Shown here: piece after piece, positions 17,669 to 48,575 of the stretch
Layout: each line of letters opens with the position of its first letter
Position numbering within the stretch: position 1 is the stretch's first letter
Source of the DNA: Lachnospiraceae bacterium
GTDB taxonomy: Bacteria; Bacillota; Clostridia; Lachnospirales; Lachnospiraceae
Length of the DNA stretch: 64,000 bases
Reading direction: 5' to 3'
Assembly (NCBI GenBank): GCA_015057035.1
Contig: SVFC01000004.1
Location: forward strand, 1 to 64,000
Made by a program: the position numbers and the translations under genes
The notes under the pieces: generated by a model
The model's input: the letters and a program-made list of their open reading frames with translations, nothing else
What the model was told of the DNA's origin: nothing
The model's database searches: none

Positions 17669-17923
17669 CTAATCTTCTTCACTTACCACCTGTAACAGTT
17701 CTTCAAACTCAGAGGTTCCGAAAAATTCCTCTAGCGTCATCCCAAGCCCGCTACATATCTTTACAATCGTTGTAATTCTGGTGCTTTGCGTTGTTCCATC
17801 CACAAGATGAAACATGGTCGTCGTTGGAACACCTGACTGATGTGCCAACATATAGTATGATAGATTTCGTTCTTTACATAGAGTTTTTACTCGATTCACA
17901 ATTGTCTTCTGTACCTTGCACAT
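17669..17923 (-). CDS. Small XRE-family HTH regulator
   Basis: An 84-aa DNA-binding protein consisting almost only of a Cro/C1-type helix-turn-helix (about 8-68): VKTLCKERNLSYYMLAHQSGV then TTTMFHLVDG and ITTIVKICSGLGMTLEEFF. The acidic tail EFEELLQVVSEED may be a dimerisation or partner region. It is separated from the polysaccharide operon by a terminator at 17955-17974 and convergent with the small coiled-coil ORF. Its targets are unknown; being next to the end of the exopolysaccharide operon is suggestive but not evidence. Confidence 0.88.
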   Translation of the reverse strand: MCKVQKTIVNRVKTLCKERNLSYYMLAHQSGVPTTTMFHLVDGTTQSTRITTIVKICSGLGMTLEEFFGTSEFEELLQVVSEED

Positions 17924-17974: not shown

Positions 17975-18013
17975 TCTAACTTATATTTTAGCAAGATAAA
18001 AAGTGCTAAAAAA

Positions 18014-18032
18014 GGGACAGAGTTGGCAACTG
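18014..18032 (+). repeat. Dispersed 19-bp repeat, copy 1
   Basis: GGGACAGAGTTGGCAACTG preceded by A6. An identical copy in inverted orientation is at 42829-42847, and a two-mismatch copy is at 42645-42663. The core AGTTG-G-CAACT is palindromic. It lies between the GH3-like stop codon and the operon terminator. Confidence 0.75.
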
Positions 18033-39570: not shown

Positions 39571-41022
39571 CTACATCGATCCATCTCTACCCAACACAAC
39601 CAACACTGTCTTAAACAGAATTCTACAATCCAATCCCATCGACCAGTTCGTTATGTACTGTGTATCCAACTTCACGACTTCTTCAAAATCTGTTATTTTA
39701 CTTCTTCCGCTTACCTGCCACATACCAGTGATGCCTGGTTTGATGGCGAGGCGCGCTCTGTGATGAAGCTCGTATTTTTCCCATTCATCCACTGTTGGTG
39801 GACGTGTGCCCACGAGGCTCATATCACCTTTTAATACGTTCCAGAACTGTGGGAATTCATCCAGTGAGAAATCTCGGATAATATTTCCTAAGCCTTTTTT
39901 CACAGTGCCATCTGGTAGCATCTTGCTACCGATGATACGTGGGTCAAAGTCCAGTTTGAACATCATGCCGTCTTTCACACGGTTCTGCGCCATCAGTTCT
40001 TTTTTGCGTTCCTCTGCATCTACATACATGCTGCGGAACTTATATATCTTGAATTTCTTTCCGTTTTTTCCAATACGCACCTGTGAGAAAAAGATTGGTC
40101 CAGGCGACTGAAGATAAATCATCGGTGCTAAAAACACGAACAAAATCATTGTGATTGCACATCCCGCCAAGCCCGCTACAATATCCACGCTCCTCTTAAG
40201 GAACATCTGGAATGGAGTTGCATAATTGATAGTTGATGTAAGAACATGATATCCACCCATCTTTTCCACAAGCACCTTGCTACCATTCACATCTTCGCGA
40301 AGGGAGATGCCCATATGTACTACAACACCCATTTCAACAAATTTATTCGCAAGTTCCGTAATGTCATCAGCCATAGAATCCGCACTAATAAATACTTCAT
40401 CTACCCAGCCTCGGCACACATAATCTATTACATTATCTTTGTCTGCCACAACTTCAACATCCAACACCTTGGTACCAATAATGCTTTTATTAATAATTGC
40501 AAGTCCCGAGATGAGGATAGCGTCGTAATTGCCTTTGGTTAGATTCAAAATTACATCCTGCGCCATGCTATCCGTGGTTACTACTAACATTGAGCGCTTT
40601 GGAGCTGCCTTATATACCTTTGTCAGATATAACTTCCATATAAGGCGCACTACGTATGTCAGTATGACATATACGCCAAACATAAGATAGATGAAAATTC
40701 TGGAATACTTTTCGCTGGCCTTGGTACTGAACAGATAGAACATAACCACCGCCGCCACCAACATCACATGCTTAATCGTTGCTGCCAATTCCAGATAATA
40801 TCCTCGCTTCAACACATTCTTGAACGTACTGAATATGTAAGCCCCCGCTAAATCAATCAACACCAGAATCATCGCCATATTGAGATAATTCTGATCCTCA
40901 TATGGGTTTACCCAGCCGAAGCGCAACATATGCGCCACGAAAAATGCTACCTGTAAGCACAATATATCCCATAATATAAAATCTAAATGTTTTAATACAC
41001 TACTCTTCCCTTTGGTATACAA
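39571..41022 (-). CDS. Polyprenyl glycosylphosphotransferase (initiating sugar transferase)
   Basis: Membrane enzyme that starts the repeat unit by moving a sugar-1-phosphate from a UDP-sugar to undecaprenyl phosphate. The 483-aa protein has about four N-terminal helices, a nucleotide-binding-like central domain and a C-terminal catalytic bacterial sugar transferase domain (about 280-483). Signatures are KRSVDIVAGLAG, PGPIFFSQVRIGKNGKKF, KIYKFRSM, GTRPPTVDEWEKYE and KPGITGMWQVSGRS. First gene of the 23-kb operon, about 70 bases after the promoter at 41091-41118. Confidence 0.94.
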   Translation of the reverse strand: MYTKGKSSVLKHLDFILWDILCLQVAFFVAHMLRFGWVNPYEDQNYLNMAMILVLIDLAGAYIFSTFKNVLKRGYYLELAATIKHVMLVAAVVMFYLFSTKASEKYSRIFIYLMFGVYVILTYVVRLIWKLYLTKVYKAAPKRSMLVVTTDSMAQDVILNLTKGNYDAILISGLAIINKSIIGTKVLDVEVVADKDNVIDYVCRGWVDEVFISADSMADDITELANKFVEMGVVVHMGISLREDVNGSKVLVEKMGGYHVLTSTINYATPFQMFLKRSVDIVAGLAGCAITMILFVFLAPMIYLQSPGPIFFSQVRIGKNGKKFKIYKFRSMYVDAEERKKELMAQNRVKDGMMFKLDFDPRIIGSKMLPDGTVKKGLGNIIRDFSLDEFPQFWNVLKGDMSLVGTRPPTVDEWEKYELHHRARLAIKPGITGMWQVSGRSKITDFEEVVKLDTQYITNWSMGLDCRILFKTVLVVLGRDGSM

Positions 41023-41090
41023 TTCTGTACTCCTTTATGAATTCGCAAAAAATGCTACAATTCCCCTATTATTTATACTCTAACATTATA

Positions 41091-41118
41091 ATTTTACACT
41101 ATTCGACAATAATGTCAA
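41091..41118 (-). promoter_or_regulatory. Promoter of the exopolysaccharide operon
   Basis: Minus strand TTGACA (41113-41118), 16-base spacer, TAAAAT (41091-41096). A TATAAT lies directly after it and could extend the -10 region. It is about 70 bases upstream of the initiating transferase and after the terminator at 41181-41214. Confidence 0.65.
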
Positions 41119-41180
41119 CATTTTGAGGCATTGTTTATATTTTATACAATATATATTGATGCATTACTAGGTAAATCAAA

Positions 41181-41214
41181 AAACTCACTCAAGCCTTACC
41201 GCTTAAGTGAGTTT
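41181..41214 (-). terminator. Terminator after the Rpn-like gene
   Basis: Fourteen-base stem with one wobble (41181-41194 / 41201-41214), loop of six, followed on the minus strand by TTTTTTGATTT. It separates the accessory block from the exopolysaccharide operon. Confidence 0.85.
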
Positions 41215-41219
41215 ATAAA

Positions 41220-42173
41220 TCAGTGTATGCTATTGTATATTTCTCTTAATTCTTCTGTGGATAGACTATCAATTATCTCGCACACTTCTTCAAAAGTTTT
41301 GCCTTTCGCAAACAGATTAGTAGCGATTTTAATGGTTGCCAGCCTCTCCCCTTGTTCTATTCCGCGTTCCAGTATCACTTCACTCAAATTACACATATCA
41401 TTCAACTTCCTTTCTAAATCAACACTCATCTTCAAGCCATGATTCTGTTCTAGATTATTCTTCTTGACTTGAAGATCTTCCTCTCTAAAAACATCCTCAA
41501 GCATTGTAATTAATTTGTTTTTTGATTTCTGTACATCTGCATCACTTCTAATATGTACTATAATACCACACATTTTGTCTAAGTGCTCATGTTTTTTAGG
41601 ATTTCCATATAAGGCTTTTTCATTTAGCGAAATTTGTGTAATAGAGTCTTCTTCTGGCCCTGCATCCATGCATATCCAAATGCTATATACCTTCTTGATT
41701 TTGTCGTAATCACTATTGAAAAACTCCACTTCTTTCTGTGAAGATATTAGACGCGATAGATAATAAACAACTCTATTCTCTATGTGATAATGTAATTTAT
41801 GAAACGATGTACTCTTTTGAGCTTCAATATTTACAATTACCTTTAGTTCTTTCTGTCTTACCATTAACGTGCATCTAATATCAAATAATATTACTCCTTC
41901 ATTTAACACTATATTTTCCGTATTCTCATTTTGCATTTTGCCTACATTGGTCAATCCCGGTTCTACCGGAGACTTACCGATTTCAATACTATCCTGAATA
42001 ATGCAGTCTATGATTTCTTCCACGCTCATATCGCTTACTTCCACCACAGTATTTTGCAAAATACGCGCCAGAATTTGAACATCAGCTAAAAGTTCTTTTG
42101 CGTTCTGGTCGTATCGCACATCTCCTGGAAGTGTCGAGTGTAGCGCATTTGCTAAGTGTGTTGCTACATTCAT
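41220..42173 (-). CDS. Rpn/PD-(D/E)XK nuclease-family protein
   Basis: A 317-aa protein of the Rpn (recombination-promoting nuclease/putative transposase) group common in Clostridia. The PD-(D/E)XK core is visible as ILFDIRCTLM (Asp) followed by LKVIVNIEAQKS (Glu-x-Gln/Lys), then YHIENRVVYYLSRLISSQ. The C-terminal helical region ends ATNLFAKGKTFEEVCEIIDSLSTEELREIYN. The start at 42173 (MNVATHLANAL) has AAGGAGA six bases upstream. Homologues act in recombination or phage defence; here the role is unknown. Confidence 0.82.
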   Translation of the reverse strand: MNVATHLANALHSTLPGDVRYDQNAKELLADVQILARILQNTVVEVSDMSVEEIIDCIIQDSIEIGKSPVEPGLTNVGKMQNENTENIVLNEGVILFDIRCTLMVRQKELKVIVNIEAQKSTSFHKLHYHIENRVVYYLSRLISSQKEVEFFNSDYDKIKKVYSIWICMDAGPEEDSITQISLNEKALYGNPKKHEHLDKMCGIIVHIRSDADVQKSKNKLITMLEDVFREEDLQVKKNNLEQNHGLKMSVDLERKLNDMCNLSEVILERGIEQGERLATIKIATNLFAKGKTFEEVCEIIDSLSTEELREIYNSIH

Positions 42174-42310
42174 TGGTATCTCCTTTTTCGTCATATACGA
42201 TTATTTAGTTACGCTCATTAGGGAACATATCCCGAACGGGGTAGATTCTGCGCAGATAGATGTTTTCTTCATCCATAAGAATATTCTATACACACTTTAT
42301 AAAAAAGCAA

Positions 42311-42340
42311 GTCGCGAAATGCATTAATGCATTTCGCGAC
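42311..42340 (-). terminator. Terminator after the Phd-like gene (bidirectional)
   Basis: Perfect 14-base stem GTCGCGAAATGCAT / ATGCATTTCGCGAC with a TA centre. The minus side continues TTGCTTTTTTAT and the plus side ATTTTTC. The rest of 42174-42382 shows no gene. Confidence 0.85.
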
Positions 42341-42382
42341 ATTTTTCTTACTTTATGAGAATCATATAATACACATATTCTT

Positions 42383-42559
42383 TTATCTCGGCACCTTATT
42401 CGCCATTGCCTCTATAAAACAATCATATTGATGCTCTGTCATCAATATCAGATGTTCACCATCCTCTGTCTCAATATTTGCCATTTCCTCATTCAAAAGT
42501 GCATTATCTATAATCTCTTCTATATTTTCTACGAATTCTGGTACTGTTACATATTTCAT
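42383..42559 (-). CDS. Small Phd/YefM-like antitoxin (orphan)
   Basis: A 58-aa ORF beginning MKYVTVPEFVENIEEI and continuing NIETEDGEHLILMTEHQYDCF, the usual layout of Phd/YefM-type antitoxins: a short N-terminal strand-helix with a conserved hydrophobic pattern, then a strand and an xxLMTxxxYD end. AGGAGA lies nine bases before the ATG, a promoter lies at 42603-42631 and a terminator at 42311-42340, so it is a complete one-gene unit. No toxin gene is adjacent. It could be a solitary antitoxin, a remnant of a module, or a small regulator. Confidence 0.65.
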   Translation of the reverse strand: MKYVTVPEFVENIEEIIDNALLNEEMANIETEDGEHLILMTEHQYDCFIEAMANKVPR

Positions 42560-42602
42560 CTTTTGCGCTCTCCTATTTACTGTTACATAGTATCCTCATA
42601 CA

Positions 42603-42631
42603 ACTATACTTAAAAACTCTTTTCTATTCAA
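42603..42631 (-). promoter_or_regulatory. Promoter of the Phd-like gene
   Basis: Minus strand TTGAAT (42626-42631), 17-base spacer, TATAGT (42603-42608), about 44 bases before the start. Confidence 0.55.
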
Positions 42632-42644
42632 TCGAATTTTTTCT

Positions 42645-42663
42645 CAGTTGCCAGGTCTGTCCC
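42645..42663 (-). repeat. Dispersed 19-bp repeat, copy 2
   Basis: Minus strand GGGACAGACCTGGCAACTG, preceded by A4. It differs at two positions from copies 1 and 3. Confidence 0.7.
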
Positions 42664-42777
42664 TTTTCAGCCCCTTTTTTATGCGTTAAAATATGTTTCG
42701 TTGTTGAGTGTCAGACAAAAATATTATTTATAATTACCTTACACAAGCACAGCCGTCTCGCTCGACAACATACAAAA

Positions 42778-42812
42778 ACATCCACGCTTTTTTCAAAAAA
42801 AAGCGTGGATGT
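42778..42812. terminator. Perfect 16-base hairpin, terminator-like
   Basis: ACATCCACGCTTTTTT (42778-42793) and its exact complement (42797-42812) with a three-base loop. T runs occur in the stem and T-rich sequence follows on the plus side. No gene clearly needs it on either strand. Confidence 0.6.
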
Positions 42813-42828
42813 CATATATTTTTTCATT

Positions 42829-42847
42829 CAGTTGCCAACTCTGTCCC
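42829..42847 (-). repeat. Dispersed 19-bp repeat, copy 3
   Basis: Minus strand GGGACAGAGTTGGCAACTG preceded by A6, identical to copy 1. It lies just upstream of the peptide promoter, where the -35 region would fall. Confidence 0.75.
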
Positions 42848-42865
42848 TTTTTTAGGGTGTTTTTC

Positions 42866-42880
42866 GTTGATATAATCAAC
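42866..42880 (+). promoter_or_regulatory. -10 box inside an inverted repeat, upstream of the secreted-peptide gene
   Basis: GTTGAT-ATA-ATCAAC is an inverted repeat with six-base arms. The consensus TATAAT (42871-42876) lies within it, 50 bases before the ATG at 42926. The -35 position holds only a T run, so the promoter may need an activator. A natural candidate operator for the neighbouring HTH regulator. Confidence 0.5.
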
Positions 42881-42925
42881 ATTGCGCGCAAAACAACTAA
42901 AAATTCGAAAGAGGAGGCAAATGAC

Positions 42926-43078
42926 ATGAAAAAAGCAATTAAGAATGTAGCTGTTGTATTCAGCTTAGTATTTACATTAGTTCTTACTGCAGGTGTTACA
43001 ACTGTAACAGATGTAGATGCTAATGATGGTATTTCAACCTGTAATGATTTATGGCTTGAAAACTCACCAGAAGACTAG
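42926..43078 (+). CDS. Secreted 50-aa peptide, candidate signalling prepropeptide
   Basis: A 50-aa ORF with a strong ribosome site (GGAGG, eight bases before ATG). The N-terminus MKKAIKN is basic, followed by a hydrophobic core (VAVVFSLVFTLVLTAGV, residues 8-24) and a plausible Sec signal peptidase site after V-D-A (residue 32). Cleavage there leaves an 18-residue acidic product, NDGISTCNDLWLENSPED, with a single Cys39. It converges with the 625-aa HTH regulator, and the two stop codons share the palindrome CTAG at 43075-43078. Size, signal and location match the signal genes of RRNPP-type quorum sensing. A Cys-to-Trp spacing like Agr peptides is noted, but no AgrB is present. The identity as a signal is inferred. 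Confidence 0.72.
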   Translation: MKKAIKNVAVVFSLVFTLVLTAGVTTVTDVDANDGISTCNDLWLENSPED

Positions 43079-44952
43079 TCTTTCATTTTTTTGGCAAAAG
43101 CGTCTCGGAGTTTTTCATCTTTGGCCATATCGCTTAGCAGAATGCATCTAAACAAAGTGTTTTTCACATATTCATTTTCTCTTGCAAGAGATTCTGTTCC
43201 ATTAATATCGTATTGATTCCAACACTTATTATACAAATTTCTTGCAAGAGTACGCATTCTTCGATTCGCCAGACTAATTCTTATCATTTCATCACTTAAT
43301 TCATTTGATTCATTTTTCTTATTAATATTGCCTAAATGACTCGAAATCCCCGTAATAACAAACTCATTGATAACCATTCTTTCCACTATACTCTTGTTAT
43401 CTCTTTTTTCATTACAATACGTTCTCAGAATATCTAAATACCTATTTTTCCTATTTGTCTTAATTCTCGTGGCAAGATTGTAAAGAATTGCTATTTCCTC
43501 AATCGTTAAATATAACTCTTTCACTTTATGAAGCATCTCCACTCTCACTGTTAATTCGAGCAAGTCCTTCAAACGTTCAACACATTCCATATTAGAAATT
43601 TCTTTCGTGTGTTCTGCCAACAGAATTCTTTCTCTGTAAACAGCTTGCTTATTTTGCACGATATCCATACATAATGCATTCTCTAGTTTATCCAATGTCT
43701 CTTTCCATTTTTCAACATTACGTTCATTACTATATTTAGACAACTGCCGTTTTAACACAAAGGTCTCTGCATTTGTGGAAATCACTCTCGCTCTCACATA
43801 TTCCGGACATAATCCCAGATTTTCAAACATTCCGCGAACTGCATACATCTGTGGCGCCATTTCGCGACGCTCTGTTCTTCTGACAGTTTTGATATCACAC
43901 ACTTCTCCGGCCAGGGCCTTTTGTGTCATCTTCATCATTTTTCTTCTGATTCTGACCACATCATTGATGCAATGGCTTTCTGTTTCTACATACAGATAGG
44001 CAAAGTTTTCCATATAAGGAGATACGTCATATTCTCTGTATAAACCGATTAACATTTCAGCCCAGATTCTGGATGTATCTGCCGTTTCTTTCAGTTCCTT
44101 GCGATACTCCTCAGAAAACACCTTATGCACTAGCATGCGTTCTATATTCCATTGACGCATATCCAATAATTCCACAAAGTAGTACATTTTCCTTGTGTCG
44201 CGAATCAGTTCAATTCCTTCATTACACAATGTTAGGCACTTTTGCAAATCCTCCAGAGAACTATCTCCATTCATATACTCCTTGCAGATATAATATACCA
44301 GCTTGGTATATACTTTTACTTTCCCGATATTATCCATATAGGACCGATCAATATATGTCCCAATGTCCTTATATCTGTCAAGTCGCCATTGGCGACAATT
44401 TGCCGCATTTTTACTATACTTATGTAAACTCACATATTCAATCAACAGATTGATTTCCTGGTCAGCCAAAATCAATGCTTCCGGAAATCCGTCGTCAATA
44501 TCTTCTATAGTATATGATACCGCCAACTCTATGGTTTTACGCAATTCCCTTTCAGGCGCATTCTTCATTTGAAGAAGCATAAATCGCATTGCCTCTAGGA
44601 ACTGGCTTTCGACTTTATCTAACTCATCTGCTGATGCGTATATTTTCAACTGTTCTTCTAATTTTTCAATATTCTTTTCTTCTATACTTTCGAGGATCTG
44701 TTGACGAAGCATCCATTCGTCATGCTCATCCATGGACAGGTAGTCTTCATATCCTTCACCGGATACACCCAGTCTGGCCACAAGTCGGTCACGCTCCAAT
44801 TTCTTTGGGAGTCTTTCTCCACTTTCCACGCGACTCATCATACTTTTCGAATATAACCCCTTGGTTAATGCCTGCATCTCTACCCCTTGCATGGTCCTGT
44901 ACGCCGTCAGAAATCCGCGAAAGTTAATTTCGTCTTTTGTATGTTTCTCCAT
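43075..44952 (-). CDS. Tandem HTH / helical-repeat regulator, RRNPP-like peptide receptor candidate
   Basis: A 625-aa cytosolic regulator. Residues about 11-65 are an XRE-type HTH (FLTAYRTMQGVEMQALTKGL, then SMMSRVESGERLPKK). Residues about 75-325 are alpha-helical and TPR-like. Residues about 330-383 form a second HTH (RIRRKMMKMTQKALAGEV, KTVRRTERREM), and 395-620 is again helical. HTH plus TPR is the plan of Rgg/PlcR/PrgX-type receptors that bind an imported peptide; the doubled plan is unusual. GGGAG precedes the ATG. It is 17 bases after rmlC, so it is the last gene of the rhamnose operon, and it converges with the secreted-peptide gene. Confidence 0.85.
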   Translation of the reverse strand: MEKHTKDEINFRGFLTAYRTMQGVEMQALTKGLYSKSMMSRVESGERLPKKLERDRLVARLGVSGEGYEDYLSMDEHDEWMLRQQILESIEEKNIEKLEEQLKIYASADELDKVESQFLEAMRFMLLQMKNAPERELRKTIELAVSYTIEDIDDGFPEALILADQEINLLIEYVSLHKYSKNAANCRQWRLDRYKDIGTYIDRSYMDNIGKVKVYTKLVYYICKEYMNGDSSLEDLQKCLTLCNEGIELIRDTRKMYYFVELLDMRQWNIERMLVHKVFSEEYRKELKETADTSRIWAEMLIGLYREYDVSPYMENFAYLYVETESHCINDVVRIRRKMMKMTQKALAGEVCDIKTVRRTERREMAPQMYAVRGMFENLGLCPEYVRARVISTNAETFVLKRQLSKYSNERNVEKWKETLDKLENALCMDIVQNKQAVYRERILLAEHTKEISNMECVERLKDLLELTVRVEMLHKVKELYLTIEEIAILYNLATRIKTNRKNRYLDILRTYCNEKRDNKSIVERMVINEFVITGISSHLGNINKKNESNELSDEMIRISLANRRMRTLARNLYNKCWNQYDINGTESLARENEYVKNTLFRCILLSDMAKDEKLRDAFAKKMKD

Positions 44953-44969
44953 TTTATACTCCCATTAAG

Positions 44970-45578
44970 TTAGAAGGCGAATGTGTCAGCTAATCCTACC
45001 CACTTCTGGTCCTTGTCACTTAGATTCAATGGAGTTCCATCCTCCAGATGGTAGCCTTCTGCAGAAGCGCTTCCTTGATATTCTCCACAGAGAGTTGGCC
45101 AGGTAATCCCGATTGCTGGGTCATTCCATGCAAGACCTCCTTCATCTCCTGGATGATAGAAATCTGTACATTTATAGCAGAACTCTGCCAAGTCTGATAA
45201 CACAAGGAATCCATGTGCAAATCCCTGTGGAATATAGAACTGTTTTTTATTTTCTTCTGTTAATTCTACGCCATACCATTTGCCATAGGTTTCACTATCT
45301 TTGCGAAGGTCTACTGCTACGTCAAATACAGAACCTTTTACTACACGAACTAGTTTCCCCTGTGGAAATTCTTTCTGGAAATGTAATCCTCGAAGCACAC
45401 CCTTCACAGAAGAAGACTGATTATCCTGTACGAATTCCATGGTAAGCCCAGCTTCTTCCATGTCTTTTTTGTTATATGTTTCCATAAAATATCCTCTAGC
45501 GTCACCGTGCACTGCTGGTTCGATAACACAGAGTCCTTCTATTCCACCGACATTTTTTTCTACTTTAATCTGTCCCAT
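44970..45578 (-). CDS. rmlC: dTDP-4-dehydrorhamnose 3,5-epimerase
   Basis: Third enzyme of dTDP-L-rhamnose synthesis, a cupin of 202 aa. Typical segments are EPAVHGDARGYFMETYNKKD, VQDNQSSSVKGVLRGLHFQ (catalytic His in RGLHFQ), GSVFDVAVDLRKDSETYGKW and PQGFAHGFLVLSD. Preceded by AAAGGAGA at a good distance. The operon order is rmlA-rmlB-rmlD-rmlC, followed by the HTH regulator. Confidence 0.96.
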   Translation of the reverse strand: MGQIKVEKNVGGIEGLCVIEPAVHGDARGYFMETYNKKDMEEAGLTMEFVQDNQSSSVKGVLRGLHFQKEFPQGKLVRVVKGSVFDVAVDLRKDSETYGKWYGVELTEENKKQFYIPQGFAHGFLVLSDLAEFCYKCTDFYHPGDEGGLAWNDPAIGITWPTLCGEYQGSASAEGYHLEDGTPLNLSDKDQKWVGLADTFAF

Positions 45579-45603
45579 GACTGTTCTCCTTTAGATTTGT
45601 TTT

Positions 45604-45629
45604 AAGGCTGTAAGTTTCCTTACAGCCTT
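45604..45629. other. Intercistronic hairpin between rmlD and rmlC
   Basis: Perfect 11-base stem AAGGCTGTAAG / CTTACAGCCTT with loop TTTC. The T run lies on the plus side; on the transcribed minus strand A-rich sequence follows, so it is unlikely to terminate the rml transcript. It may stabilise mRNA ends or mark an old junction. Confidence 0.55.
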
Positions 45630-45637
45630 TTTATTCT

Positions 45638-46579
45638 TTAAAATTCGATTTCTTTTAAATAACGTTGCAACGCATCCTGCCACGTTGGAAGTGGAGCAAA
45701 TCCGGTTTCAACCAGTTTACTCTTGTCCAAACGGCTGTTAAATGGTCTTGCTGCTTTTGACACGCCATACTCTGCTGTAGTTACAGGAAGCACAGTTAAT
45801 CTCTCTGTACTATATTCATTTCGCCCCATAGCAACAGCCTGACGGAAAATCTCTACTGTAAAATCATACCAGCTAATATAACCGCCTTCATTGGTTGCGT
45901 GATAATATCCATACTTCTCTGTTTCAATCATATCCACCAGAAGCACCGACAAATCTAACGTATAGGTTGGTGTTCCAATCTGGTCACACACTACAGTTAA
46001 TCTATCACGGGTTTTTCCAACATTTAACATTGTCTTGATGAAGTTCTTGCCGTTGATGCCAAATACCCACGCTGTACGAACAATGAAATATTTTTCCAGA
46101 GTATTCGCAACCGCCAATTCTCCATCCAATTTGCTCTGGCCATATACGCTAAGTGGCGCATAATCTTTACAATCTGCCGACCACGGAATCTCTCCTTGTC
46201 CGTCAAATACATAGTCCGTGCTGATATATACCATTTTGGCACCAACTGTTTTACACGCATTGGCAATGTTCTGGGTACCGCCTACGTTAATAGCACGCAC
46301 CTTGTCCTTTTTGTCCTCATCTTCTGCCAAATCCACCGCGGTCCATGCTGCACAGTGTACCACTACATCTGGATTCACATCTGTTATGATACGAGTAACT
46401 GCTTCCGCATCTGTGATGTCCAGTGCCACATATGGCATAGTAGTAACCGCACTTCCATCTGCCACGCCAGAATATGAAGGTGCAATATCACTACCTACAC
46501 CTTCGTATCCTCTTTTGGCTAATTCGTTCATTACATCATGGCCTAGTTGTCCTGCCACGCCTGTTACGAGAACTTTCAT
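45638..46579 (-). CDS. rmlD: dTDP-4-dehydrorhamnose reductase
   Basis: Fourth enzyme of dTDP-L-rhamnose synthesis, NAD(P)H-dependent SDR of 313 aa. The nucleotide motif is VTGVAGQLGHDVM, then HCAAWTAVDLAEDE, STDYVFDG and catalytic YGQSKLDGE. C-terminal RPFNSRLDKSKL matches the family. A good AAGGAG site precedes it, 24 bases after rmlB. Confidence 0.96.
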   Translation of the reverse strand: MKVLVTGVAGQLGHDVMNELAKRGYEGVGSDIAPSYSGVADGSAVTTMPYVALDITDAEAVTRIITDVNPDVVVHCAAWTAVDLAEDEDKKDKVRAINVGGTQNIANACKTVGAKMVYISTDYVFDGQGEIPWSADCKDYAPLSVYGQSKLDGELAVANTLEKYFIVRTAWVFGINGKNFIKTMLNVGKTRDRLTVVCDQIGTPTYTLDLSVLLVDMIETEKYGYYHATNEGGYISWYDFTVEIFRQAVAMGRNEYSTERLTVLPVTTAEYGVSKAARPFNSRLDKSKLVETGFAPLPTWQDALQRYLKEIEF

Positions 46580-46603
46580 ATTCTTACTCCTTATGAAACA
46601 CGA

Positions 46604-47623
46604 CTATCTGTTAGCGTACATTTTCTCATAATAGTTCTGGTATTCTCCAGAAATGATTTCTTCCCACCATTCTTTATTTTCAAGATACCATTTGATCGTC
46701 TTCTTGATTCCATCTTCGAATTTTGTTTCTGGCAACCAGCCAAGTTCATTGTGAATCTTGGTTGGGTCGATAGCGTAACGCATATCGTGCCCCTTACGGT
46801 CAGCCACATATGTGATGAGACTTTCTGGTTTTCCTAATTCTTTACAGATAATCTTAACGATTTCGATATTAGTTTTTTCATTGTGTCCACCAACGTTATA
46901 TACTTCACCAACACGACCATTATGAATAATAAGGTCAATTGCTTTACAGTGGTCTTCTACATATAACCAGTCACGAACGTTTTCGCCCTTACCGTATACT
47001 GGAAGTGGCTTGTCTGCCAAAGCATTGGCAATCATAAGCGGAATCAACTTCTCTGGGAAGTGATATGGTCCATAGTTGTTAGAGCAACGGCTGATTGTTA
47101 CAGGAAGTCCAAATGTTCTGTGATAAGCCATTACTAACAGGTCTGCACCAGCCTTTGATGAGCTGTATGGGCTACTTGTATGGATTGGTGTTTCTTCTGT
47201 GAAAAACAGGTCTGGACGATCTAATGGAAGGTCTCCATATACTTCGTCTGTTGAAACCTGATGATAACGTGTGATTCCATATTCACGGCAAGCATCCATA
47301 AGTGTTGCTGTTCCGATAATATTTGTCTGAAGGAAAATCTCTGGATTTTCGATAGAACGGTCTACATGTGATTCTGCTGCAAAGTTTACAACGATGTCTG
47401 GATGTTCTTCTTCAAATAATGCGTAAACACCCTTTCTGTCGCAGATGTCCATTTTTACGAAACGGAAGTTAGGGTTGTCCATAACATCCTTTAATGTAGA
47501 TAAGTTTCCTGCGTATGTGAGTGCATCGATACATACGATACGATAGTCAGGATATTTGTTTAACATATGAAATACGAAATTGCTTCCGATGAAGCCAGCT
47601 CCACCTGTTACGATAATTGTCAT
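46604..47623 (-). CDS. rmlB: dTDP-glucose 4,6-dehydratase
   Basis: Second enzyme of dTDP-L-rhamnose synthesis, extended SDR of 339 aa with bound NAD. Motifs: VTGGAGFIGSNFV, FAAESHVDRSIENP, STDEVYGDLPLD, catalytic YSSSKAGADLL and RCSNNYGPYHFPEKLIP. Standard length; AAGGAG precedes the ATG. Confidence 0.97.
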   Translation of the reverse strand: MTIIVTGGAGFIGSNFVFHMLNKYPDYRIVCIDALTYAGNLSTLKDVMDNPNFRFVKMDICDRKGVYALFEEEHPDIVVNFAAESHVDRSIENPEIFLQTNIIGTATLMDACREYGITRYHQVSTDEVYGDLPLDRPDLFFTEETPIHTSSPYSSSKAGADLLVMAYHRTFGLPVTISRCSNNYGPYHFPEKLIPLMIANALADKPLPVYGKGENVRDWLYVEDHCKAIDLIIHNGRVGEVYNVGGHNEKTNIEIVKIICKELGKPESLITYVADRKGHDMRYAIDPTKIHNELGWLPETKFEDGIKKTIKWYLENKEWWEEIISGEYQNYYEKMYANR

Positions 47624-47678
47624 AATTTTTTCTCCTTAAAAATGTGTCTTATATATTTACTTGAATTCTTCACAAATC

Positions 47679-48575
47679 TTAATACAACTGCTCACGATAT
47701 TTTCCATCGATAACATCTTTCAAATACTGTCCGTACTGATTCTTCTTCAATACTTCATATACTTCAAGAATGTCTTCCTTAGTAATCCATCCATTTAAGT
47801 ATGCGATTTCTTCCAGACAAGCAATCTTGCGATGCTGATGTGTTTCTACTGTCTTAACGAAGTTAGTAGCGTCTACAAGGCTCTCATGTGTTCCTGTATC
47901 AAGCCAGGTGAAGCCCTGTCCAAGAAGTTCTACATTCAGTTCGCCATCTTCTAAGTAGATACGATTTAAGTCAGTGATTTCCAATTCCCCACGCTTTGAT
48001 GGTTTTAAGTTCTTGGCATATTCCACAACCTTGTTGTCATAGAAATAAAGACCTGTTACACAGTAGTTGCTCTTTGGATGTTCTGGCTTCTCTTCGATGG
48101 AGATTGCCTTGCCTTCCTTATCAAATTCTACGATACCGAAACGCTCTGGATCATCTACATAATATCCAAATACAGTCGCGCCTTTGCCAGTTTCAGCATT
48201 TTCAACTGCGGTACGCAAACGCTTCTTAAGGCCATGTCCTGCAAAAATATTATCTCCGAGAACCATTGCTACTGTATCATCACCGATGAATTCTTCACCA
48301 ATAATAAATGCCTGAGCGAGTCCATCTGGACTTGGCTGTACTGCATAAGAGAGGTTTACACCAAACTGATGTCCATCCCCTAATAACTCCTTGAATCTTG
48401 GTGTATCCTGTGGTGTAGAAATGATTAAGATATCACGAATGCCTGCGTTCATAAGAACTGACATTGGATAGTAAATCATTGGTTTGTCATAAATTGGAAG
48501 TAACTGTTTGCTTGTTACCATTGTGAGTGGATAAAGACGTGTGCCCGAACCACCTGCTAAAATTATACCTTTCAT
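47679..48575 (-). CDS. rmlA: Glucose-1-phosphate thymidylyltransferase
   Basis: First enzyme of dTDP-L-rhamnose synthesis, 298 aa. [18 protein letters not shown] at the N-terminus is the nucleotide loop, followed by [28 protein letters not shown] and [11 protein letters not shown]. Uses glucose-1-phosphate, which the mutase at 14281-16005 can supply. The promoter at 48645-48675 lies 70 bases upstream. Confidence 0.97.

Follow-up and report, generated by a model that had tools for sequence, protein, structure and literature searches.

A probable peptide quorum-sensing pair with a double HTH-TPR receptor and a candidate operator in a Lachnospiraceae genome

In the PlcR-PapR system of the Bacillus cereus group a cytoplasmic HTH-TPR activator works with a secreted peptide whose precursor gene lies by the 3' end of the receptor gene, and the regulon is marked by a common box; the SHPs, which serve Rgg receptors, are hydrophobic. 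Rgg-SHP systems are grouped in part by how their shp and rgg genes are oriented (PMC12445099), and SHP and PrgQ precursors are described as leaving the cell through PptAB and not through Sec (PMC10075063). The latter source also gives 21–50 aa for validated RRNPP precursors and presents a detector that accepts receptors of 250–500 aa, because the validated ones span 285–473 aa (PMC10075063); a structural phylogeny of 2025 recognizes five core TPRs, to which an N-terminal HTH and four more TPRs can be added (PMC12700828). Since surveys stop at 500 aa, a branch of double receptors may have escaped them. Lachnospiraceae are major gut commensals, and peptide signalling among them seems little charted: the word Lachnospir- is absent from the main texts of three of the relevant papers (PMC10075063, PMC12700828, PMC9765709), and our literature search returned no paper joining RRNPP systems with Lachnospiraceae (most subscription papers lay outside that search) and none on quorum sensing with Roseburia and Rgg.

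The window considered here, i.e., the whole 64,000-nt stretch of DNA that was analysed, belongs to an assembly of 2.4 Mb in 40 contigs (84.7% complete) and carries what is quite probably an RRNPP-type peptide quorum-sensing module with a double receptor, which would switch its own promoter and a small regulon (Table 1). The locus resembles PlcR-PapR in its HTH-TPR regulator, in the position of the precursor gene at the 3' end of the receptor gene and in promoters with a common box, predicted in our case; it departs from it in that PlcR, as solved, is a single-unit chain of 293 aa whereas two units are fused here, the peptide gene faces the receptor gene with overlapping stop codons, and the box is different. 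With Rgg-SHP, MutR and ComR and with PrgX of streptococci and enterococci it shares the HTH class, but unlike SHP and PrgQ the peptide has a Sec-type signal followed by an acidic C-terminal region, and the receptor is double. QssR-QssP of solvent-forming Clostridium is also described as an RRNPP-type pair in Clostridia, and the validated RRNPP receptors reach at most 473 aa as against 625 aa in the window. Four single-unit relatives within the genus (L029, L030, L031, and L042) likewise combine an HTH-TPR regulator, of about 305 aa, with a convergent peptide; three of these loci show a 4-bp overlap of the two genes, and the peptides have ends such as TSCFIFED. Their regulators consist of one unit, that of the window of two.

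Table 1. Features of the locus and of the predicted regulon (positions refer to the window).
Feature	Position	Strand	Basis or remark
84-aa HTH_26 regulator, predicted regulon member	17669..17923	-	element copy 5'
third operator/-10 copy in the window, 5' of the small HTH gene	17985..18025	-	element scan
second, weaker operator copy CAGGTCTGTCCCTT, TAAAAT 21 nt downstream	42652..42692	+	184 bp upstream of the first copy
proposed operator CAACTCTGTCCCTT (42836-42849) and -10 TATAAT (42871-42876), peptide promoter	42836..42876	+	element scan
putative pro-pheromone gene, 50 aa	42926..43078	+	ORF, AGGAGG 8 nt before ATG; same-layout member of 52 pairs
predicted regulon: peptide gene, two element copies	42926..43078	+	
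codons of the conserved core GISTCND (residues 35-41)	43028..43048	+	Gibbs motif
CTAG common to both stop codons, 4-bp convergent overlap	43075..43078	.	sequence
RRNPP-type double receptor/regulator, 625 aa, HTH-TPR-HTH-TPR	43075..44952	-	half-vs-half hhalign; family profile
second HTH, residues 327-384	43801..43974	-	own HTH profile, domain E 3.6e-7
first HTH, residues 14-71	44740..44913	-	own HTH profile, domain E 7.9e-8
rmlC, rmlD, rmlB, rmlA, 5' of the regulator and collinear with it	44970..48575	-	rmlC Pfam, other three by eye
predicted regulon: LytTR response regulator and GHKL kinase			
predicted regulon: 2226-aa protein, signal-like start, RHS repeats, TNT domain			
predicted regulon: two overlapping ORFs, lectin domains in the second			
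predicted regulon: 986-aa protein, signal-like start, HExxH motif			motif by eye
predicted regulon: HNH protein			
predicted regulon: helicase-like ORF, then ORF with RE_endonuc domain			helicase-like by eye

The first-pass annotation had described a 50-aa ORF with a Sec signal and a strong ribosome site, converging on a 625-aa regulator with both stop codons in one CTAG, and the layout was confirmed in each of these respects. The translation of the ORF is MKKAIKNVAVVFSLVFTLVLTAGVTTVTDVDANDGISTCNDLWLENSPED; its N-terminus is basic and its 12-residue mean hydropathy reaches 2.88, values from which the Sec-type signal was called, and between 40 and 50 kb of the window it is the sole small ORF to pass a signal-plus-RBS filter. 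The tail carries a net charge of -7. A V-D-A/N cleavage site at residues 30–33 is suggested by eye, and the GISTCND core probably lies within the mature signal. As a query against 60 relatives the peptide gave no convincing homologue (weak matches, E 0.0045 to 0.76), and relatives were therefore traced through the regulator.

With profile A1, 45 of 397 family genomes, that of the window among them, yielded regulators (E ≤ 1e-20), and the first set comprised 96 sources (the window and 95 loci) with 108 regulator ORFs whose 3' end could be read. A peptide was counted when a convergent ATG ORF of 25–90 aa was preceded by an RBS matching in at least 5 nt, combined a basic start with a hydrophobic core, and ended between -60 and +300 bp from the regulator's end, a definition fixed only after the first loci had been inspected. 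Convergent signal peptides accompanied 42/108 regulators as compared to 2/601 other ORFs (Fisher p 1e-35), counts that are not independent because many sites and peptides are homologous copies; the two control matches sit 91 and 134 bp from their neighbours. Around the same 108 regulators other orientations yielded two divergent upstream peptides, none on the same strand downstream and none on the same strand upstream. Long regulators (at least 480 aa) had a peptide in 29 cases out of 57, shorter ones in 13 out of 51, and 37 of the 42 peptides end within 11 nt of the regulator's end. The second set, made of named records (34 loci), gave a convergent peptide at 18/30 regulators vs. 0/164 other ORFs, where the 18 positives include L185 and L186, identical to L173 and L174, and one of the 30 (L196) duplicates L047 of the first set. 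Both comparisons support the conserved RRNPP-type pairing of a secreted peptide with an HTH-TPR protein that had been proposed from the window. Homologous regulators lacking an adjacent secreted small ORF, named in advance as evidence to the contrary, do exist alongside this enrichment: the strict definition left 66/108 without a peptide, and a relaxed one recovered 8. No peptide was found beside the regulator of Roseburia inulinivorans, though the DNA element described below adjoins it; the closest relatives by regulator carry the names Agathobacter and Roseburia, on which ground the window is assigned to the Lachnospiraceae. Overall, 52 pairs were assembled, 2 added and 8 from the relaxed definition included, and by genome labels they span 24 genera. 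The overlap measures exactly 4 bp in 24 of the 52, the stops taking a YTAR form of which CTAG is the window's version only, while among convergent pairs of other ORFs 0/66 overlap by 4 bp and 1/66 has ends within 10 nt.

The peptides themselves share a core. Gibbs sampling of the 52 tails produced the motif G-[IV]-[ST]-[PTV]-[CL]-S-D, GISTCND in the window, with a log-likelihood of 353, where 25 shuffles gave 275.5 ± 5.6 and at most 288.8; the window's GISTCNDL ranks third among the motif rows, and the 12 lowest rows, below 7.2 bits, may be without the motif. In 38/52 peptides the core ends 5–12 residues from the C-terminus. Drift without coding constraint had been named as a refuting outcome, and the peptides of the relatives are instead constrained: in 23 close pairs pS was 0.44–0.83 and pN 0.10–0.28, a pN/pS of about 0.15–0.45, to be taken as indications and not estimates because the filter on identity favours low pN. 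These pairs (23 of 231 from a set of 22 peptides, sharing at least 45 codons and 55% identity) do not include the window's own peptide. By part, pooled pN/pS was lowest in the core (0.18), followed by signal (0.25), spacer (0.36) and end (0.47). Alternatively, the peptides could be secreted effectors, such as small bacteriocins, whose expression a regulator of RRNPP ancestry controls, and not the ligand of that regulator. An operator in the peptide promoter would suit a target as well as a signal, and 13/52 peptides measure 60–77 aa, above the 21–50 aa of the validated RRNPP precursors (PMC10075063); we nonetheless regard this alternative as quite unlikely, given that the tail-to-tail pairing with the receptor extends over 24 genera, that the part following the hydrophobic core is net negative in 51/52 peptides and shares one core motif, which is not the membrane-active type, and that validated RRNPP precursors likewise consist of a signal followed by a short C-terminal pheromone.

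As to the receptor, the first-pass annotation had one HTH followed by helical repeats; the assignment is real, with a degenerate TPR part and a weak HTH_31 match, and what it missed is that the receptor is double and that a candidate regulon is readable from the sequence. On the strength of family profiles, the 625-aa protein is two RRNPP-type HTH-TPR units fused head to tail. Aligned against each other by hhalign, the N and C halves of the regulator family reach a probability of 99.7 (E 8.7e-26), and 98.1 in the close clade alone; both halves match the single-unit relatives in profile comparison, the C half at 99.9, and our own HTH profile places one HTH at the N-terminus and another mid-protein in 84/89 long regulators. 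At some loci (L052, L115, L116, and L117 among them) two separate adjacent genes of 308–361 aa replace the double gene. Among solved structures PlcR is the best match of the family profile (E 4.8e-13, PlcR residues 10–276, in the C half), followed by designed TPR proteins, Rgg, ComR and PrgX; in the close clade the N half matches PrgX and Rgg (E 4e-4 to 1e-3) and the C half PlcR (E 5e-4). The Pfam domain RNPP_C is present in 2/13 family members. Taken alone, the window protein shows in Pfam a weak HTH_31 (E 0.0031, under the family cut-off) and no TPR, and a scan of genome contigs started from it gave no match; TPR motifs are degenerate in the close clade, with five Pfam TPR families each matching only 1/30 members, and the second HTH and the RRNPP-like halves are visible with family profiles only. 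With respect to the features by which RRNPP(A) systems are recognized, an HTH with a peptide-binding TPR fold is found at the level of profiles, the small precursor has a Sec signal as judged by charge and hydropathy, and the two genes directly adjoin; the length of 625 aa falls outside the 250–500 aa range because two units are fused. This exceeds the size limit of a detector, which is not a mechanistic feature, and the protein is therefore counted as an RRNPP variant. Two more double regulators stand head to tail elsewhere in the window's genome (L051, 6623–10295 on C10), and no convincing peptide ORF was seen at these tandem paralogues.

A new finding is the element CAAYTCTGTCCCTT-N21-(-10), which precedes the peptide genes and accompanies part of the receptor family. 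In relatives (peptide upstream regions, second set) it frequently forms one half of the inverted repeat CAAGGGACAGARTTG...CAAYTCTGTCCCTTG, and 26/42 exact right halves have their left half, the commonest spans being 46 bp (12) and 42 bp (5); at most copies in the window's genome there is a single half-site and not the full repeat. At 18/21 peptide loci a half-site occurs no more than 600 bp 5' of the peptide's start, and none occurs within this distance at L186, L188, and L210. A -10-like hexamer begins exactly 21 nt past CCCTT in 44/67 sites, as compared to 15/67 for the runner-up offset and to a background rate of 3.4% in the loci of the window's genome. This offset sets the element against the -35 region, where the match is only TTGnnn (TTTTTT in the window), and so poor a -35 suggests activation instead of repression. 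A palindrome over the -10, TTGATATAATCAA, was rejected as operator, having one copy in the window at up to 1 mismatch when 0.38 were expected by chance. The CAGTTGCCA...CTGTCCC repeat was also considered as a dispersed repeat or transposon end, and set aside because the -10 spacing is fixed and the element co-occurs with the regulator; in some relatives it may be a mobile promoter cassette. Between the two operator copies 5' of the peptide lies an inverted repeat (42778–42812) whose 16-nt arms match perfectly and stand 3 nt apart, terminator-like on both strands. Some relatives have copies 5' of the regulator too (L189, L198, L200, L206, and L209), and in others (L282, L284, L289, L293, L297, L305, and L306 among them) a partly conserved leader with GATAATCAGGAGTTATC follows the element before unrelated genes. 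Rfam gave no match to known RNA families up to E 0.1 in window positions 41000–46000 and four leader loci.

The element tracks parts of the receptor clade, the window's among them. In 62 genomes of the genus the exact 14-mer is present in 3/5 with a regulator (E ≤ 1e-20) and in 3/57 others. The former have 6 copies (window's genome), 2 (G462) and 1 (G034), those of G462 and G034 adjoining the regulator; the latter have one copy each, with a -10 only at that of G004. The 14-mer is missing from two regulator genomes, G461 and G011, and the contig of G011 stops before the peptide. Over the 397 family genomes, scanned with up to 1 mismatch, the exact composite element occurs only in the window's genome (G000) and in G430, where it adjoins the regulator, and both receptors belong to the element's clade; 15 other genomes gave 16 one-mismatch matches, attributable to chance because the reversed control pattern gave 20. 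Among further regulator-bearing genomes of the second set, 18/19 have the element, in 2–13 copies each when the arms of one repeat are counted apart, with zero control matches, and the sole exception has a distant regulator (23% identity). When 89 long regulators were placed on a receptor tree by a quick method with no bootstrap, one clade of 39 rows had an SH-aLRT of 100; of its readable rows, 25/37 have the element no more than 1.5 kb from the receptor 3' end, against 0/46 outside. Five family genomes with a regulator of this clade (G101, G106, G295, G304, and G417) are without a copy, so that no clade-wide rule holds, and the rest of the clade may use another box. These five, the promoter-like copy of G004 without a close regulator, and the many copies in relatives that precede a partly conserved leader before unrelated genes would suit an element belonging to another factor or to a mobile promoter cassette, its link to the regulator being hitch-hiking. 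We consider such an origin unlikely in view of the co-occurrence with regulator-bearing genomes, of the position 5' of the peptide at most loci, and of the copies before different genes in the window's genome, where the -10 follows at 21 nt in eight cases and 22 nt in one.

What computation shows is a conserved pair, coding constraint on the peptides of relatives, a receptor made of two units, and an element with its promoter geometry and its co-occurrence with part of the family; around these we infer export, import, peptide binding, DNA binding, density dependence, and activation over repression. In a peptide quorum-sensing module of this kind the 50-aa precursor would be exported via Sec and then cut, and a short mature peptide around GISTCND would re-enter the cell, probably by an oligopeptide permease; three OppA-like SBP_bac_5 ORFs are encoded in the window's genome. 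Inside, the peptide would bind one or both TPR units of the regulator, which would bind CAAYTCTGTCCCTT with the -10 box 21 nt on, switching first the promoter of the peptide, thereby closing a feedback loop, and also a small regulon across the genome. The tail-to-tail overlap may in addition pit opposing transcripts against each other. For the wider proposal we see the balance as even: peptide quorum sensing in Lachnospiraceae would form a separate branch based on HTH-TPR-HTH-TPR receptors, with one or two ligands, an operator of 42–46 bp occupied by four HTHs per dimer, and the window's regulon. If this is true, each double receptor could respond to two different ligands or bind a single one at both units, which poses the question of whether two peptides are integrated by one protein; the operator, two paired half-sites, would be held by the four HTHs; and in the window's species one such receptor would direct the signal gene, a small HTH protein, a response regulator-kinase pair, large secreted proteins (one RHS/TNT) and restriction-type genes. 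The analysis defines a receptor clade and its candidate signals, proposes an operator together with the geometry of its promoters, and predicts nine sites in one genome.

The genomic setting had suggested another role. The regulator is indeed the last gene of the rml row, starting 17 nt past rmlC at the end of rmlA-B-D-C, and this gene order with the regulator recurs in G011. From the place of the regulator in the rml operon and from the exopolysaccharide operon promoter 1.9 kb away, the first-pass annotation had suggested that the pair may adjust capsule or rhamnan production to cell density. This we hold to be very unlikely, and the claim is left unsupported: the closest regulators within the genus come from five genomes, of which only the window's and G011 have the rml setting (G461, G462, and G034 do not), no operator at up to 2 mismatches was found at the rml (48.6–48.9 kb) or exopolysaccharide (about 41.1 kb) promoters, the copies in the window being only those at 42652, 42836, and 18025 (-), and co-transcription would put the receptor level under rml, not vice versa. 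A gene for an Rpn/PDDEXK transposase-like nuclease lies between the peptide and the exopolysaccharide genes (41220–42194, - strand), with weak Pfam/NCBIfam matches below cut-off.

Beyond the window, a scan of its genome at up to 2 mismatches returned nine copies of the element, which mark a candidate regulon; at 3 mismatches two more appear, along with one control match. Eight copies precede a same-strand start codon by about 57–129 bp, the distance of the C33 copy using a start further into the ORF chosen by eye, and the ninth is the second copy of the peptide, 261 bp before it. A common box at several promoters including the peptide's own, as in a PlcR-type regulon, is thus found in the form of predicted sites. 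Phage defence was considered as a function of the regulon and discarded, with no excess of PADLOC families at 1e-10 (7 in 25 targets vs. 19 in 25 length-matched controls), in a comparison that is blunt because the controls come from regulator neighbourhoods and at least 3 genes are common with the targets. Among defence candidates picked by eye behind the element in relatives, 6/10 proteins had PADLOC matches at 1e-5, and defence-like genes (SIR2, STAND with metallophosphatase, PNP-type effector, LmuA/LmuB) were seen in this position at L279, L286, L289, L291, and L302. At L294 and L309 the element lies 122 nt upstream of an adenylation-domain gene (NRPS-like, by eye) of about 920 aa.
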